A DNA stretch of 12,954 bases. Source: Desulfobacterales bacterium. Lineage in GTDB: Bacteria > Desulfobacterota > Desulfobacteria > Desulfobacterales > Desulfobacteraceae. The DNA is taken from NCBI GenBank assembly GCA_022361135.1, contig JAKSBM010000219.1, positions 1 through 12,954 on the forward strand. Direction: 5' to 3'. Position numbers and translations under genes: made by a program. This document shows positions 1 to 3,104 of this stretch, in pieces. The stretch's first letter is position 1, and every line of letters begins with the position of its first letter. The notes beneath the pieces are model-generated. The model saw nothing but the letters and a program-made list of their open reading frames with translations, had not been told where the DNA came from and did not search any database.

Positions 1-505
1 AATATCGTCCCCCGCAGGCACGGGCCAATTCTTCCCCCGCCTTGGAAGAGCGGTTGGCAATGGTCACCCGCCCTCCCCTGTCCTGTATGCCGTGGGCAAC
101 GGCCTTGGCTGCCCCCCCTGCCCCCAGAACAAGCACCTCCTTTCCTTGAATTCCATGGGCATCCAAAGGATCCACAGCTGCGCGCAAATCAGTATTGTAA
201 CCCTTGAGGGTTCCCCCCTCATTGACCAGGGTATTCACAGCCCCGATTTTTTCCGCCAGGGGATCCACCCAATCCAGATGGGGAAGGATGGATTCCTTGA
301 ATGGAATGGTCACCGAAACGCCTTGGATATCCAATGCCCTGACCGCCCCCACGGCCCCTGCGATATCCCTGGGTTCAAATGCCAGGTACACGGCATCGAT
401 GCCGTGGAATGCAAAGGCGGCATTGTGGATGGCCGGGCTGAGGGAATGGCCCACCGGACTGCCGAAGATACAATAGAGTCGGCTTGTGGTCGTTATGGTG
501 TTCAT
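1..505 (-). CDS. aroE: Shikimate dehydrogenase AroE (N-terminal 168 residues; cut by window edge)
   Basis: NADPH-dependent reduction of 3-dehydroshikimate to shikimate in the cytoplasmic shikimate pathway. I translated the frame from the ATG at 505, and it stays open to the left edge. Family motifs appear in order: the substrate-binding GSPVGHSLSP (about residues 15-24), VTIPFK with the catalytic lysine K70, GAVNTL (88-93), GYNTD with the catalytic aspartate D106, the glycine-rich NADP loop GAGGAAKAV (128-136), and NRSSK (151-155), the position that usually recognises the NADPH phosphate. The family is about 270-285 residues, so roughly 100 C-terminal residues lie outside the window. The start is one base after the pheA stop codon, so the gene is probably translationally coupled to pheA and shares its attenuator. 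No truncation or frameshift is visible in the part seen. Confidence 0.95.
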   Translation of the reverse strand, partial: MNTITTTSRLYCIFGSPVGHSLSPAIHNAAFAFHGIDAVYLAFEPRDIAGAVGAVRALDIQGVSVTIPFKESILPHLDWVDPLAEKIGAVNTLVNEGGTLKGYNTDLRAAVDPLDAHGIQGKEVLVLGAGGAAKAVAHGIQDRGGRVTIANRSSKAGEELARACGGRY

Positions 506-506
506 C

Positions 507-1604
507 CTAGTTGCCTTCCTCCGGGTGGGCGGGATATGCGCCCAGGATCTTGAGGGTTAATGTGTTTTCCTTTAAAAGGTCTATGGTTTCAGCCACCCTG
601 TCATCTGAAATGTGGCCGGCCAGATCCAGGAAGAAATAATAATGCCACTTTTCCTTACGGGTGGGCCGTGATTCCAATTTCAACATATTCATGCCTGCGG
701 TTTCAACCGGTTTTAATGCCTGAAACAAGGCACCGGGTTGGTGGGGGACGGCAAACATGACCGAGGTTTTATCATTTCCCGTGGCCCGGGGTGTTTCCCG
801 CCCAATGATCAGGTAGCGGGTGACATTGCCGGAACCGTCCTGGACCTGGGTTTCAATGGGTAAAAGATCATGGACGGCGCTGGTTTCTCCGGGAATAAGG
901 GCGCCGGTGTCGGGATCCTTCTGGGCAGTTGCCACGGCGTCAAGGTCCGAAGAGACTGCCACCAACTTTATATGGGGAAACTTGCGTCCCAGCCAACGGC
1001 GACATTGATCCAACACCCGGGGGGTGGCTGTGATGGATTTCAGGTGCTGGGTATTCCCTGTAATGGAAACCAGATCATGGGTGACCGGACTATAGTGTTC
1101 CCCGGTGATCTTCAGATCGTATTCCGCAAAGAGATCCAATGTATGGGCAACCGTGCCTTCCATGGAATTTTCCACCGGCACCACACCAAAGTGGGATTCG
1201 TTTTTTTCCACCTCCCTGAACAATTCCTCCAGGCTGGGCTGGGAAAGATATTCTCCGCAATGGTGGAAATGCTCCATGGCCGCCCGATGGGGAAAACCAC
1301 CCTTGGGCCCCAGGTAGGAGATTGTTTTGGGTTTTTGAATATCCCGGGTGGCCCGGATGATTACGTTGAACAGATACCTGAGAAGGGTCTGGTCCGCCGG
1401 TCCCTGGTTTTGACGGAAGAGATTTTCCATGACCCTTTTTTCCCGGGAACGGTCCAAAACCTGGGATCCCTTTTCCTTCTTGATATTGCCCACTTTCCGC
1501 CCCACTTCAAGGCGTTGGTTAACCAATTCGAGAATCTGGGAATCAATTCGATCGATCTCATCCCTCAAGGGTGCCAATTCTTTTTCCGGCACTGCTGACT
1601 CCAT
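507..1604 (-). CDS. pheA: Bifunctional chorismate mutase / prephenate dehydratase with ACT domain (P-protein)
   Basis: Converts chorismate to prephenate and then to phenylpyruvate, the committed branch to phenylalanine. The 365 residues show an AroQ chorismate mutase (about 10-90), a prephenate dehydratase (about 95-270) and an ACT regulatory domain (about 279-358), the usual P-protein length and order. Mutase active-site residues of the E. coli enzyme are kept at a constant +3 offset: R14, R31, K42, D51, R54, E55. The dehydratase has VVPVENSMEGTV (141-152) and the catalytic threonine T262 in NVTRY. The ACT domain has GALF (291-294) and ESRP (311-314), the phenylalanine-binding signatures, so allosteric Phe inhibition is expected. 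Two dehydratase positions are unusual: GGFPH where GTFS-like is typical, and TRY instead of TRF. The ATG at 1604 has an AGGGGG ribosome binding site 8 bases upstream. It lies just after the attenuator terminator and one base before aroE. Confidence 0.95.
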   Translation of the reverse strand: MESAVPEKELAPLRDEIDRIDSQILELVNQRLEVGRKVGNIKKEKGSQVLDRSREKRVMENLFRQNQGPADQTLLRYLFNVIIRATRDIQKPKTISYLGPKGGFPHRAAMEHFHHCGEYLSQPSLEELFREVEKNESHFGVVPVENSMEGTVAHTLDLFAEYDLKITGEHYSPVTHDLVSITGNTQHLKSITATPRVLDQCRRWLGRKFPHIKLVAVSSDLDAVATAQKDPDTGALIPGETSAVHDLLPIETQVQDGSGNVTRYLIIGRETPRATGNDKTSVMFAVPHQPGALFQALKPVETAGMNMLKLESRPTRKEKWHYYFFLDLAGHISDDRVAETIDLLKENTLTLKILGAYPAHPEEGN

Positions 1605-1621: not shown

Positions 1622-1664
1622 AAAAATAAAAAAACCGCATCAGGTGCTTGCCCTGCTGCGGTTT
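1622..1664 (-). terminator. Intrinsic terminator of the pheA attenuator (3:4 hairpin plus U-tract)
   Basis: Read on the minus strand, AAACCGCAGCAGG (1664-1652) pairs with CCTGATGCGGTTT (1644-1632). This gives 12 of 13 pairs with a single G/A mismatch and a 7-base loop. T7-A-T5 (1634-1622) follows directly, the layout of a Rho-independent terminator. It sits 17 bases before the pheA start codon, so it must be conditional if pheA is expressed from the upstream promoter. Its 5' arm overlaps the alternative antiterminator. It can also end read-through transcripts from the CNNM/CorC gene, which has no other visible terminator. Confidence 0.88.
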
Positions 1665-1715
1665 GTCTGCGTTTTGTTCTTTTATTGAATCAGTGGATCA
1701 CCACAGACAGGCAGC
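1655..1715 (-). promoter_or_regulatory. Putative antiterminator (2:3 pairing) of the pheA leader
   Basis: On the minus strand, GCTGC (1715-1711) and TGTCTG (1709-1704) near the end of the leader gene can pair with GCAGC (1659-1655) and CAGACA (1669-1664). This makes an 11-pair stem with a small asymmetric internal loop. The 3' strand uses part of the terminator's 5' arm, so this stem and the terminator cannot form together. It is the expected anti-terminating form when a ribosome stalls upstream on the Phe/Tyr codons. The pairing was found by eye; no energy was calculated. Confidence 0.72.
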
Positions 1716-1778
1716 ATGGGTATAAAAATACCCATAAAAATAAAAGCTAAAAAATTTATTTGCGTGTCTGTTGTTCAT
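1698..1778 (-). CDS. Phe/Tyr-rich leader peptide controlling pheA-aroE (PheL-like)
   Basis: A 26-codon gene from the ATG at 1778 to the TGA at 1698. Residues 9-19 read FFSFYFYGYFY: five Phe and four Tyr in eleven codons. The peptide ends in a Trp codon directly before the stop. It lies between a TTGACA promoter and a terminator in front of pheA, exactly where the enterobacterial pheL leader lies. The likely role is in the act of translation: scarcity of charged tRNA-Phe or tRNA-Tyr stalls the ribosome over segment 1 and frees segment 2 for the antiterminator. The function is inferred from this layout. Weak point: there is no good Shine-Dalgarno sequence, only an A-rich AAAAGAA about 8 bases upstream. 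An AT-rich stretch could yield Phe/Tyr codons by chance, but the coordinated hairpins argue against that. Confidence 0.82.
   Translation of the reverse strand: MNNRHANKFFSFYFYGYFYTHAACLW
1703..1771 (-). promoter_or_regulatory. Putative protector/pause structure (1:2 pairing) of the pheA leader
   Basis: Inside the leader gene, ATGGGTAT (1735-1728) and ATACCCAT (1723-1716) form a perfect 8-pair hairpin with a 4-base loop. It is flanked by ACAGACA (1771-1765) and TGTCTGT (1709-1703), a second perfect 7-pair stem. Pairing here uses up segment 2 and so prevents the antiterminator. In known amino acid attenuators this 1:2 structure also pauses RNA polymerase so that translation can catch up. Confidence 0.7.
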
Positions 1779-1815: not shown

Positions 1816-1844
1816 ACCCTATATGGGCTTTGTTCGGTTGTCAA
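1816..1844 (-). promoter_or_regulatory. Sigma-70-like promoter for the pheA leader operon
   Basis: On the minus strand a perfect -35 TTGACA (1844-1839) is followed by TATAGG (1823-1818) at a 15-base spacing or TAGGGT (1821-1816) at 17 bases. The -10 is therefore imperfect and its exact position is uncertain. The sequence just upstream is A/T-rich (AAAGAAATTTTC), as in UP elements. A start near 1811 would give a leader RNA of about 200 bases containing the leader gene and the attenuator. Confidence 0.65.
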
Positions 1845-1862: not shown

Positions 1863-3104
1863 CTATTCCTTTTTCAGGATAAAGGATTGTATCCGGTTTC
1901 CGTCCATTTCCTTTACCGTGGCCGTCCACTTTCCAATTTTTATGAATTCACCGTCCTTTGGAATCCGTTCCACCTGGCCCAGGAAAAACCCGGACAGGGT
2001 ATCGTAATTGGCCGATTCCGGTAATTCGATTTCTATTTCCTTGTTCAAATCCTGGATGGCTATTTTACCCTTGACCAGCCATTTGTTCCCCTTGAGGCGG
2101 ACGATGTCCGGAGGTACCTGATCGGTTTCATCGGTGATCTCCCCAAGGATTTCCTCAACTAAATCTTCCAGGGTAACAATACCGGAAACGCCGCCGTGCT
2201 CATCCACCACCACGGCCATGTGGCTTTTCTGGGCTTTAAAATCCTGGAGAAGGGAATCCAGCTTTTTGGTCTCCGGCACAAAATAGGGCTGCTTCATGAT
2301 TTCCTTAACATCCAGGAAACCGGAACTATCCCGGCTGCTCATGAGACGTTGGTAGGAACTGAAAAGATCCTTCACATGAAGGATGCCGATGATATTGTCA
2401 ATGGTGTCCTCAATGATGGGAATCCGGGAAAAACCGGTTTTCAACGTGGCTTTGATGTCCAGCCCTTCGGCCACATCAATGACATACATATCAGCCCTTG
2501 GGGTCATAATCTCGGAGCAAAAGGTGTCGTCAAACTCAAAAATGTTTGAAATATATTCCTTTTCCGCTTCCTTGATTTCCCCCTCCTCTTCCACCACTTC
2601 CACCATGGTCATCAATTCATCTTCGGTGACGGTGTCCTGGGATTTATCCAGGCGTCCGTGGAGGGAAGGCACAAAATTGAGAATCATTATCAAGGGCCAG
2701 AAGAGTTTGGAAAGCCAGTAAATTGGATAGATTACGGCACGGGCCACAAGCACATTGTTCTGGTTGGCAAAGGATTTGGGGAAAATTTCACCAAAGACCA
2801 GAATCAAAAGGGTCATGACACCGGTGGCAATGCTCACGGCATTGGATTCAAAATAGCGCAAGGAGAGTGCCGTGGCCAGGGCGGAGGCACCGATGTTCAC
2901 CAGGTTGTTGCCGATGAGAATGGTGGTTAACAGAGTATTGGAGTCTTCCTTCATCTGCTGAATTAAACGACCGGTGGTTGATCCGTCTTTGGAAATGTGA
3001 AGGGCTTTGACTTTACTGATGGAAAACAAAGCCGTTTCAGAGGATGAAAAAAAACCGGAAAGAATAAGGCAGATGATCAGTAAAATAAGATCAAAGGTTA
3101 TCAA
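1863..3104 (-). CDS. CNNM/CBS/CorC-domain membrane protein (HlyC/CorC family; probable Mg2+/Co2+ efflux)
   Basis: Inner-membrane protein of 413 residues with the family's standard layout. A DUF21/CNNM membrane domain occupies about 1-150, with GNNLVN (65-70) and the GEIFPK motif (105-110). An acidic helical linker follows (about 155-190), then a CBS pair (about 195-250 and 262-322, including DEHGGVSGIVTLEDLVEEI) and a C-terminal CorC_HlyC domain (about 335-413). Relatives such as YfjD/CorB, CorC and MpfA are linked to magnesium or cobalt export and resistance; the hemolysin name is historical. The substrate cannot be read from sequence. The start is TTG at 3104: the membrane segment begins at once and the first in-frame ATG is at residue 51. 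AGAGGA lies about 11 bases upstream. The 71-base upstream gap holds a putative promoter, so it is probably a separate unit from the lpx operon. It is unrelated in function to pheA. Confidence 0.88.
   Translation of the reverse strand: MITFDLILLIICLILSGFFSSSETALFSISKVKALHISKDGSTTGRLIQQMKEDSNTLLTTILIGNNLVNIGASALATALSLRYFESNAVSIATGVMTLLILVFGEIFPKSFANQNNVLVARAVIYPIYWLSKLFWPLIMILNFVPSLHGRLDKSQDTVTEDELMTMVEVVEEEGEIKEAEKEYISNIFEFDDTFCSEIMTPRADMYVIDVAEGLDIKATLKTGFSRIPIIEDTIDNIIGILHVKDLFSSYQRLMSSRDSSGFLDVKEIMKQPYFVPETKKLDSLLQDFKAQKSHMAVVVDEHGGVSGIVTLEDLVEEILGEITDETDQVPPDIVRLKGNKWLVKGKIAIQDLNKEIEIELPESANYDTLSGFFLGQVERIPKDGEFIKIGKWTATVKEMDGNRIQSFILKKE

Follow-up and report, generated by a model that had tools for sequence, protein, structure and literature searches.

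A Phe/Tyr-rich leader ORF and predicted attenuator upstream of pheA in Desulfobacteraceae, with related elements before DAHP synthase and ADH synthase genes

Introduction

What does a 26-codon open reading frame crowded with phenylalanine and tyrosine codons do in front of a pheA gene? The question is raised by a 12,954-nt stretch of contig JAKSBM010000219.1 (the window) from a Desulfobacterales bacterium, a member of a mostly anaerobic, sulfate-reducing group. Attenuators at trpL, hisL and other amino acid operons serve different amino acids and operons but belong to the same class of mechanism as that considered here. A first-pass annotation of the window, made from its letters alone, had proposed that the frame encodes a leader peptide of this kind. 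Judged from the sequence, its relatives and the pairing of its RNA, the pheA leader is very probably a classical ribosome-mediated transcription attenuator, and the device would most likely raise the production of aromatic amino acids when these run short.

Leader ORF and gene context

The leader peptide ORF (MNNRHANKFFSFYFYGYFYTHAACLW; 1698..1778, minus strand) runs from ATG to TGA and encodes 26 amino acids. Within its putative regulatory codons 9–19 (FFSFYFYGYFY; 1722..1754, minus strand), nine of 11 codons specify Phe or Tyr (5 Phe, 4 Tyr). Dinucleotide shuffling of the 258-nt intergenic region, with ATG, GTG and TTG starts allowed, reproduced nine aromatic codons in 11 in 0/5000 cases; the best 11-codon window of a shuffle held 3.4 aromatic codons on average and 8 at most. 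When starts were restricted to ATG in a separate run, 1/5000 shuffles reached 9/11. The short aromatic frame reported in the first-pass annotation is thereby confirmed.

Downstream of the leader lie pheA (507..1604, minus strand), encoding a chorismate mutase-prephenate dehydratase with an ACT domain, and the 5' part of aroE (1..505, minus strand), encoding shikimate dehydrogenase, which runs off the window. The pheA product scores above the Pfam cut-offs for CM_2, PDT and ACT, and reaches 216.1 against the NCBIfam prephenate dehydratase model (cut-off 219). Upstream of the leader is a CNNM/CorC-like gene (1863..3104).

An exact match to a -35-like TTGACA is found at 1839..1844 on the minus strand (read from 1844 to 1839), and a spacer of 17 nt separates it from a weak -10-like TAGGGT (1816..1821, minus strand), identified by script, with 3/6 matches. 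By eye, both this -10 and the Shine-Dalgarno sequence of the leader are poor. A consensus promoter scan of the window returned no promoters, the TTGACA site having been picked up by script. The consensus scan also missed the intrinsic terminator, its five terminator calls all being on the plus strand. In the fold, the terminator at about 1664..1628 (minus strand) is clear (z = -2.34; 4/200 shuffles fold equally well), and its T run TTTTTTT occupies 1628..1634 (minus strand). The leader ORF thus sits between the TTGACA site and the intrinsic terminator, before pheA-aroE, the placement first proposed for it, which sequence and fold both bear out.

Alternative RNA helices

The whole leader RNA folds into two helices, with all strands on the minus strand of the window. 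Strand 1 (ACAGACACGCA; 1761..1771) pairs with strand 2 (GCCTGTCTGTGGT; 1700..1712), which comprises the last codons and the first base of the stop, in the minimum free energy fold. Strand 3 (ACCGCAGCAGGGC; 1650..1662) pairs with strand 4 (CCTGATGCGGTT; 1633..1644), the 3' arm of the terminator, and seven T follow. The end of the ORF (GCCUGUCUGUGGU) is also able to pair with strand 3, which is both the 5' arm of the terminator and the 3' half of the antiterminator. Strand 3 is shared, and its pairings with strand 2 (antiterminator) and with strand 4 (terminator) are mutually exclusive. Duplex energies in the window are -16.2 kcal/mol for 1:2, -18.6 for 2:3 and -20.1 for 3:4.

A small GGUAU...AUACC hairpin is also seen just 5' of strand 2, at about 1715–1736, with a Tyr codon in its 5' arm. 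It recurs by eye in many leaders in alignment A4, which was built to view this hairpin and strand 1 and stands outside the pair counts given below.

pheA upstream regions of relatives

We located 45 pheA loci in named genomes and scanned the DNA upstream of 30 for the leader. It was seen in four of the 30 (L001, L002, L004 and L008), all of them Desulfobacteraceae-type records. No leader of this form lies directly upstream of pheA at L003, L005, L006 and L007, nor at the Nitrospirota, Desulfuromonadales and other loci among the 30 regions. The upstream DNA of L009 and L012 was short. Weak aromatic frames occur upstream of pheA at some of the loci that do not carry the leader, such as L023. At L001 the operon context reads corC-like gene, leader, pheA, aroE, aroA, shikimate kinase gene (best NCBIfam score 146.8, cut-off 161) and aroC.

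We then compared 52 pheA regions, those of the window and of 51/86 genomes of one Desulfobacteraceae family, the family of G001, which is the metagenome-assembled genome carrying L001. Each of the 51 genomes has a full-type pheA match preceded by at least some DNA; left out were G036 and G085, whose match opens a contig, and a further 33 whose matches were only weak or absent. Comparison of relatives had been named in the first-pass annotation as the way to check the leader, and its outcome is favourable: in 39/52 regions an aromatic-rich ORF ending at a CTGTGG-like strand 2, and then a terminator, lie directly upstream of pheA. The other 13 comprise four with the leader further upstream, one with it behind an IscB insertion, one cut by a contig end and seven without a leader.

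In three of the four with a more distant leader (G061, G062 and G054; pheA loci L087, L091 and L099), the element precedes an ADH synthase (ADHS) gene upstream of pheA (element loci L132, L133 and L135). The order at L132 is corC-like gene, leader, ADH synthase, DHQ synthase II-like gene and pheA, the corC-like and DHQ names being assigned by eye. In the fourth, G086 (L096), the element lies 366 nt before pheA (L134). At L074 an IscB gene with HEARO RNA stands between pheA and the leader, which is intact (L136), and at L084, where the contig end cuts the region, the terminator is still visible.

The seven pheA regions with no leader (L048, L061, L064, L081, L082, L095 and L097) imply that some members of the family have lost the leader or never acquired it. 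In five of the seven (G003, G007, G039, G049 and G056) the element model has a match elsewhere in the genome (E < 2e-8), and the matches in G039 (L191) and G007 (L151) were read as lying before a DAHP synthase (DAHPS) gene. Of the other two, G044 has a weak model match only (E = 0.0073) and G038 has no model match. At L061 the last 130 nt before pheA keep the TTGACA and the terminator and are missing the leader ORF, resembling an internal deletion.

An exact TTGACA lies at most 130 nt upstream of the leader in 34/39 rows, and at -57 to -72 in 31/39. The motif alone is unspecific, being found at most 260 nt from pheA in 6/8 regions with no visible leader. Under the same shuffle test, 12/39 rows (window included) are above all 300 shuffles, and for 17/39, mostly of the Desulfobacter type (MIFSFSKNFYFSTRFYRKDSLPVDY and the like), 10 to 50 of the 300 do equally well. 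In these 17 rows the codon run alone is not striking, and the case rests on homology and RNA pairing. At L093, a start at a GTG that lies in frame 5' of the called ATG would, by eye, lengthen the leader and bring an ACAGGC segment resembling strand 1 inside the ORF. At L088 the hairpin called by script is a later one, not the CAGCAG terminator of this locus.

Conservation and covariation

Pairs were counted separately in two alignments. A1 holds 27/39 pheA leader rows, 12 close relatives being left out. The second set, A3, holds 35/40 loci found with the first-set model, whose structure contained the terminator only; L132, L133, L134, L136 and L171 were left out. A joint alignment of both classes (A2) did not enter the counts, since in the pheA class the upper half of the antiterminator stands one base out of register with that of the other loci.

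Both competing helices are conserved and covary. In the 27 rows, the antiterminator 2:3 has 87.3% of cells paired and four pairs with two-sided changes; its paired fraction and its covariation score were each reached by 0/500 shuffles, and slid controls were at most 59.7% paired. The terminator 3:4 has 85.5% of cells paired and four two-sided pairs (slid controls at most 59.1%). The second set gave 86.9% for 2:3 against at most 41.6% in slid controls, with 6/500 shuffles reaching the paired fraction and 8/500 the covariation score, and 95.5% for 3:4 against at most 44.9%. Further pair types were not above shuffles in four counts, each count being reached by 60 to 426 of 500. In the second set, 2:3 and its +2 slide have equal numbers of two-sided pairs (5), and such cells number 9 in the slide versus 7. 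RNAalifold on A1 returned the terminator core only, as is expected of two competing folds.

A swap test on the 27 rows compared strands with their cognate and permuted partners. The mean cognate 1:2, 2:3 and 3:4 duplexes each beat all 5000 partner permutations, which were made between species with relatedness uncorrected and with the strand-3 window of L088 misplaced. The cognate ranks first in 12/27 rows. Strand 2 of the window ranks 1st of 27 as the partner of its strand 1, but its strand 3 comes no higher than 12th of 27 as the partner of strand 2, so that no single row can decide the matter. The 1:2 duplex, seen in the window fold and above permuted partners on average, is weak (-5 to -8 kcal/mol) in 6/27 rows.

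The reading frame of strand 2 changes among relatives. Peptide tails before the stop include CLW, SLW, PVDY, FVAR and PVVH, all encoded by the same RNA segment in different frames; pairing thus explains the conservation of the end of the peptide, and codons that of its middle. Taken with the leader and terminator of 39/52 regions, the conserved, covarying antiterminator supports the role of attenuator sensor that had been suggested for this peptide.

Ribosome-masked folding, in which the footprint of a ribosome is masked on the RNA, was applied to 25/39 rows. For most of the aromatic codons in the cluster, 2:3 can still form in these rows when the masked ribosome stalls there, and it is lost when the ribosome sits on the final codons or the stop. 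This drop at the end of the ORF is partly geometry; more informative is that occlusion sets in at about the point where the aromatic cluster stops. In the window, a stall at Tyr19, already past the onset of occlusion, scores low (0.17). When the window RNA was cut after strand 3 and folded with no ribosome, 2:3 (0.72) was favoured over 1:2 (0.10), so termination without translation is not assured.

Spread across the class

Model R1, which spans strand 2 to the terminator, matches 69/86 genomes of the family with an E limit of 0.05 and 161/389 genomes of the order with a limit of 0.01; some of these matches are chance hits or opposite-strand shadows, and match counts per genome overstate copies. 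Covariance model R2 matches, with an E limit of 1e-4, 200/291 genomes sampled from the class, the E-values being rough, and 34/297 phylum genomes, class members among them. Many R1 matches precede genes other than pheA.

We read 83 places: 40/40 of an earlier group of loci, 23/40 loci of a later group and 20/20 of a class-level sample. Mainly high-scoring matches make up 63 of the 83. All but one (82) lie before an ADH synthase, DAHP synthase or pheA gene, and the first of these three genes downstream is ADHS at 40 places, DAHPS at 38, pheA at 4 and none at 1, where the contig ends. Although the models reach no more than a few codons 5' of strand 2, 81/83 places carry aromatic leaders as called by script; the exceptions are L158, where the leader stops early, and L224, near a contig end. 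Scores above NCBIfam cut-offs were obtained for ADH synthase at L168, DAHP synthase (aroFGH) at L145 and L160, and prephenate dehydratase at L144. The class-level sample (n = 20) was hand-picked down the ranking among the matches listed, with E up to 2e-7; 19/20 have an aromatic leader (not L224), and 19/20 precede ADHS, DAHPS or pheA (not L217, which is at a contig end).

Seventeen loci stand outside the 83. Ten are repeats, and L175 has an aromatic leader before DAHPS. The remaining six (L203, L204, L206, L207, L208 and L210) are weak phylum-level matches, among which L210 has no aromatic frame and L203 none ending at strand 2. L207, L208, L204 and L206 have short aromatic frames; by eye, a shikimate kinase-like gene and another type of DAHP synthase lie downstream of L207 and L208, and an acyl-CoA synthetase-like gene and an ABC transporter binding protein-like gene downstream of L204 and L206.

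The occurrence of the element before DAHP synthase and ADH synthase genes in many genomes of the class goes beyond the first-pass annotation, which had concerned pheA. The archaeal-type early shikimate route begins with ADH synthase.

Proposed mechanism

The window combines a short ORF enriched in codons for what the pathway makes, a terminator before the first structural gene and an antiterminator that excludes it. Its location before a chorismate mutase-prephenate dehydratase gene is that of the functional pheL type. We infer the following course of transcription start, translation, stalling and amino acid response. RNA polymerase would start at the TTGACA promoter, and a ribosome would follow on the leader ORF. 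When charged Phe- and Tyr-tRNA are plentiful, the ribosome would reach the stop codon and cover strand 2; strand 3 would then pair with strand 4, and the terminator would stop transcription ahead of pheA. If charged Phe-tRNA, and probably also Tyr-tRNA, is short, the ribosome would stall in codons 9–19, leaving strand 2 free to pair with strand 3, so that the terminator could not form and pheA-aroE would be transcribed. At L001, read-through would also reach aroA, the shikimate kinase gene and aroC. Class-wide, the same predicted device also precedes DAHP synthase and ADH synthase.

Which amino acids such a device would sense may be judged from its codons. Leader bodies before pheA contain 28.9% Phe, 13.1% Tyr and 1.0% Trp (39 rows), those before ADHS 20.2% Phe, 22.0% Tyr and 3.2% Trp (39 leaders) and those before DAHPS 18.1% Phe, 22.9% Tyr and 2.4% Trp (37 leaders). 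We lean towards a single family of Phe/Tyr attenuators, often with Trp, as the main aromatic control across this Desulfobacterota class, heading DAHPS, ADHS and pheA with codons tuned to the target: Phe-biased before pheA, and balanced between Phe and Tyr with frequent Trp before the entry enzymes. The products of the L001 operon are shared by the synthesis of all aromatic amino acids, in keeping with a leader that holds more than Phe.

It is possible, but rather doubtful, that the attenuator works and senses Phe only, the Tyr codons being bystanders due to the similarity of TTT and TAT or to RNA constraint. Such a restriction would agree with the Phe bias of the pheA leaders and with aroR of Corynebacterium glutamicum (Phe-Tyr-Phe), which is reported in the review PMC11802643 to answer Phe limitation and not Tyr limitation. 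However, Tyr is present in all 39 pheA leaders and is commoner than Phe before both ADHS and DAHPS. Moreover, in the 11 genomes with both kinds of leader, F/(F+Y) averages 0.70 before pheA versus 0.53 before DAHPS and is higher before pheA in 10/11, the pattern that tuning of composition to need would give (Wilcoxon p = 0.002, uncorrected for relatedness; the DAHPS leader of G002 is an early-stopping frame). This difference in Phe share suggests that the Tyr codons matter.

A further alternative, which we consider very improbable, is that the ORF is untranslated, with a ligand or protein driving a terminator-antiterminator switch in the RNA, whose T-rich stretch only mimics aromatic codons. 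Conservation is indeed strong at the level of RNA, with strand 2 in different frames in relatives, and codon substitutions give weak evidence for translation. In a codon-substitution test on 26/39 rows, in groups of equal length, the group of 14 rows showed a synonymous excess (10 synonymous versus 18 non-synonymous changes, p = 0.012), and the groups of 5, 4 and 3 rows showed no significant excess. Against such a switch, an open aromatic frame from start to stop ends at strand 2 in all 39 pheA rows, and such a frame recurs at 81/83 further places before three kinds of gene, in a search whose models began only a few codons before strand 2; nor did any Rfam riboswitch reach threshold in the window or in 20 loci of relatives. 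As far as sequence comparison can tell, the persistent open aromatic frame is better evidence for translation than the weak codon substitution.

Least plausible of all is that the terminator merely ends the CNNM/CorC-like transcript, with pheA served by another promoter and the ORF coincidental: a corC-like gene does lie directly upstream in the window and seven relatives have pheA with no leader, but a promoter-like site stands between corC and the leader, the chance and covariation results speak against coincidence, and in G061 the leader is flanked by a gene that by eye looks corC-like and by an operon that opens with ADHS and ends in pheA, so the element heads an aro operon whatever its first gene.

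Comparison with known systems

The pheL-pheA attenuator of Escherichia coli, also treated in PMC11802643, shares with the one proposed here a Phe-rich leader, a chorismate mutase-prephenate dehydratase gene and mutually exclusive antiterminator and terminator. It differs in that here Tyr is a frequent partner of Phe, the RNA sequence is another, the operon includes common shikimate-pathway genes (aroE and, at L001, aroA, the shikimate kinase gene and aroC), and related elements precede DAHPS and ADHS. The aroR-aroF system of C. glutamicum (Neshat et al., 2014, as described in PMC11802643) is alike in having a leader with Phe and Tyr codons before a DAHP synthase gene and attenuation by stalling. 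It belongs to an actinobacterium, has only Phe-Tyr-Phe and is reported there to respond to Phe, not Tyr; if the Tyr and Trp codons are functional here, the leaders would form a multi-input starvation sensor, unlike aroR as reported.

The kind of attenuator is therefore known (pheL, aroR); the lineage-wide family was not found in the literature searched, and its set of targets is unexpectedly wide. Among the matches listed in that search, no attenuator is named for this lineage before pheA, DAHPS or ADHS; deltaproteobacterial predictions may be contained in the comparative attenuation survey of Lopatovskaya et al. (2010), which PMC4833913 cites. The proposed mechanism is a concrete, testable one by which a large bacterial group would regulate its synthesis of aromatic amino acids, and it annotates a very short gene. 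One attenuator design stands before two unlike pathway-entry enzymes and a branch enzyme, with leader codons that differ by target, and it points to an RNA family for which no model of Rfam 15 gave a match at threshold in this analysis.

At the gathering threshold, Rfam has no match in the window; a permissive scan gave 16 sub-threshold matches. Membership of the Phe_leader family (RF01859) was rejected at 18.8 bits and E = 0.72 against a gathering cut-off of 55, as was that of a Bacteroides sRNA model at 23.9 bits and E = 0.0012 against a cut-off of 174.8. Across 20 loci of relatives, the matches at threshold were one HEARO RNA and one tRNA only, and no family covers the leaders. At L136:546-1997 (G031), the IscB gene and its HEARO (omega RNA) stand between an intact leader and terminator and pheA.
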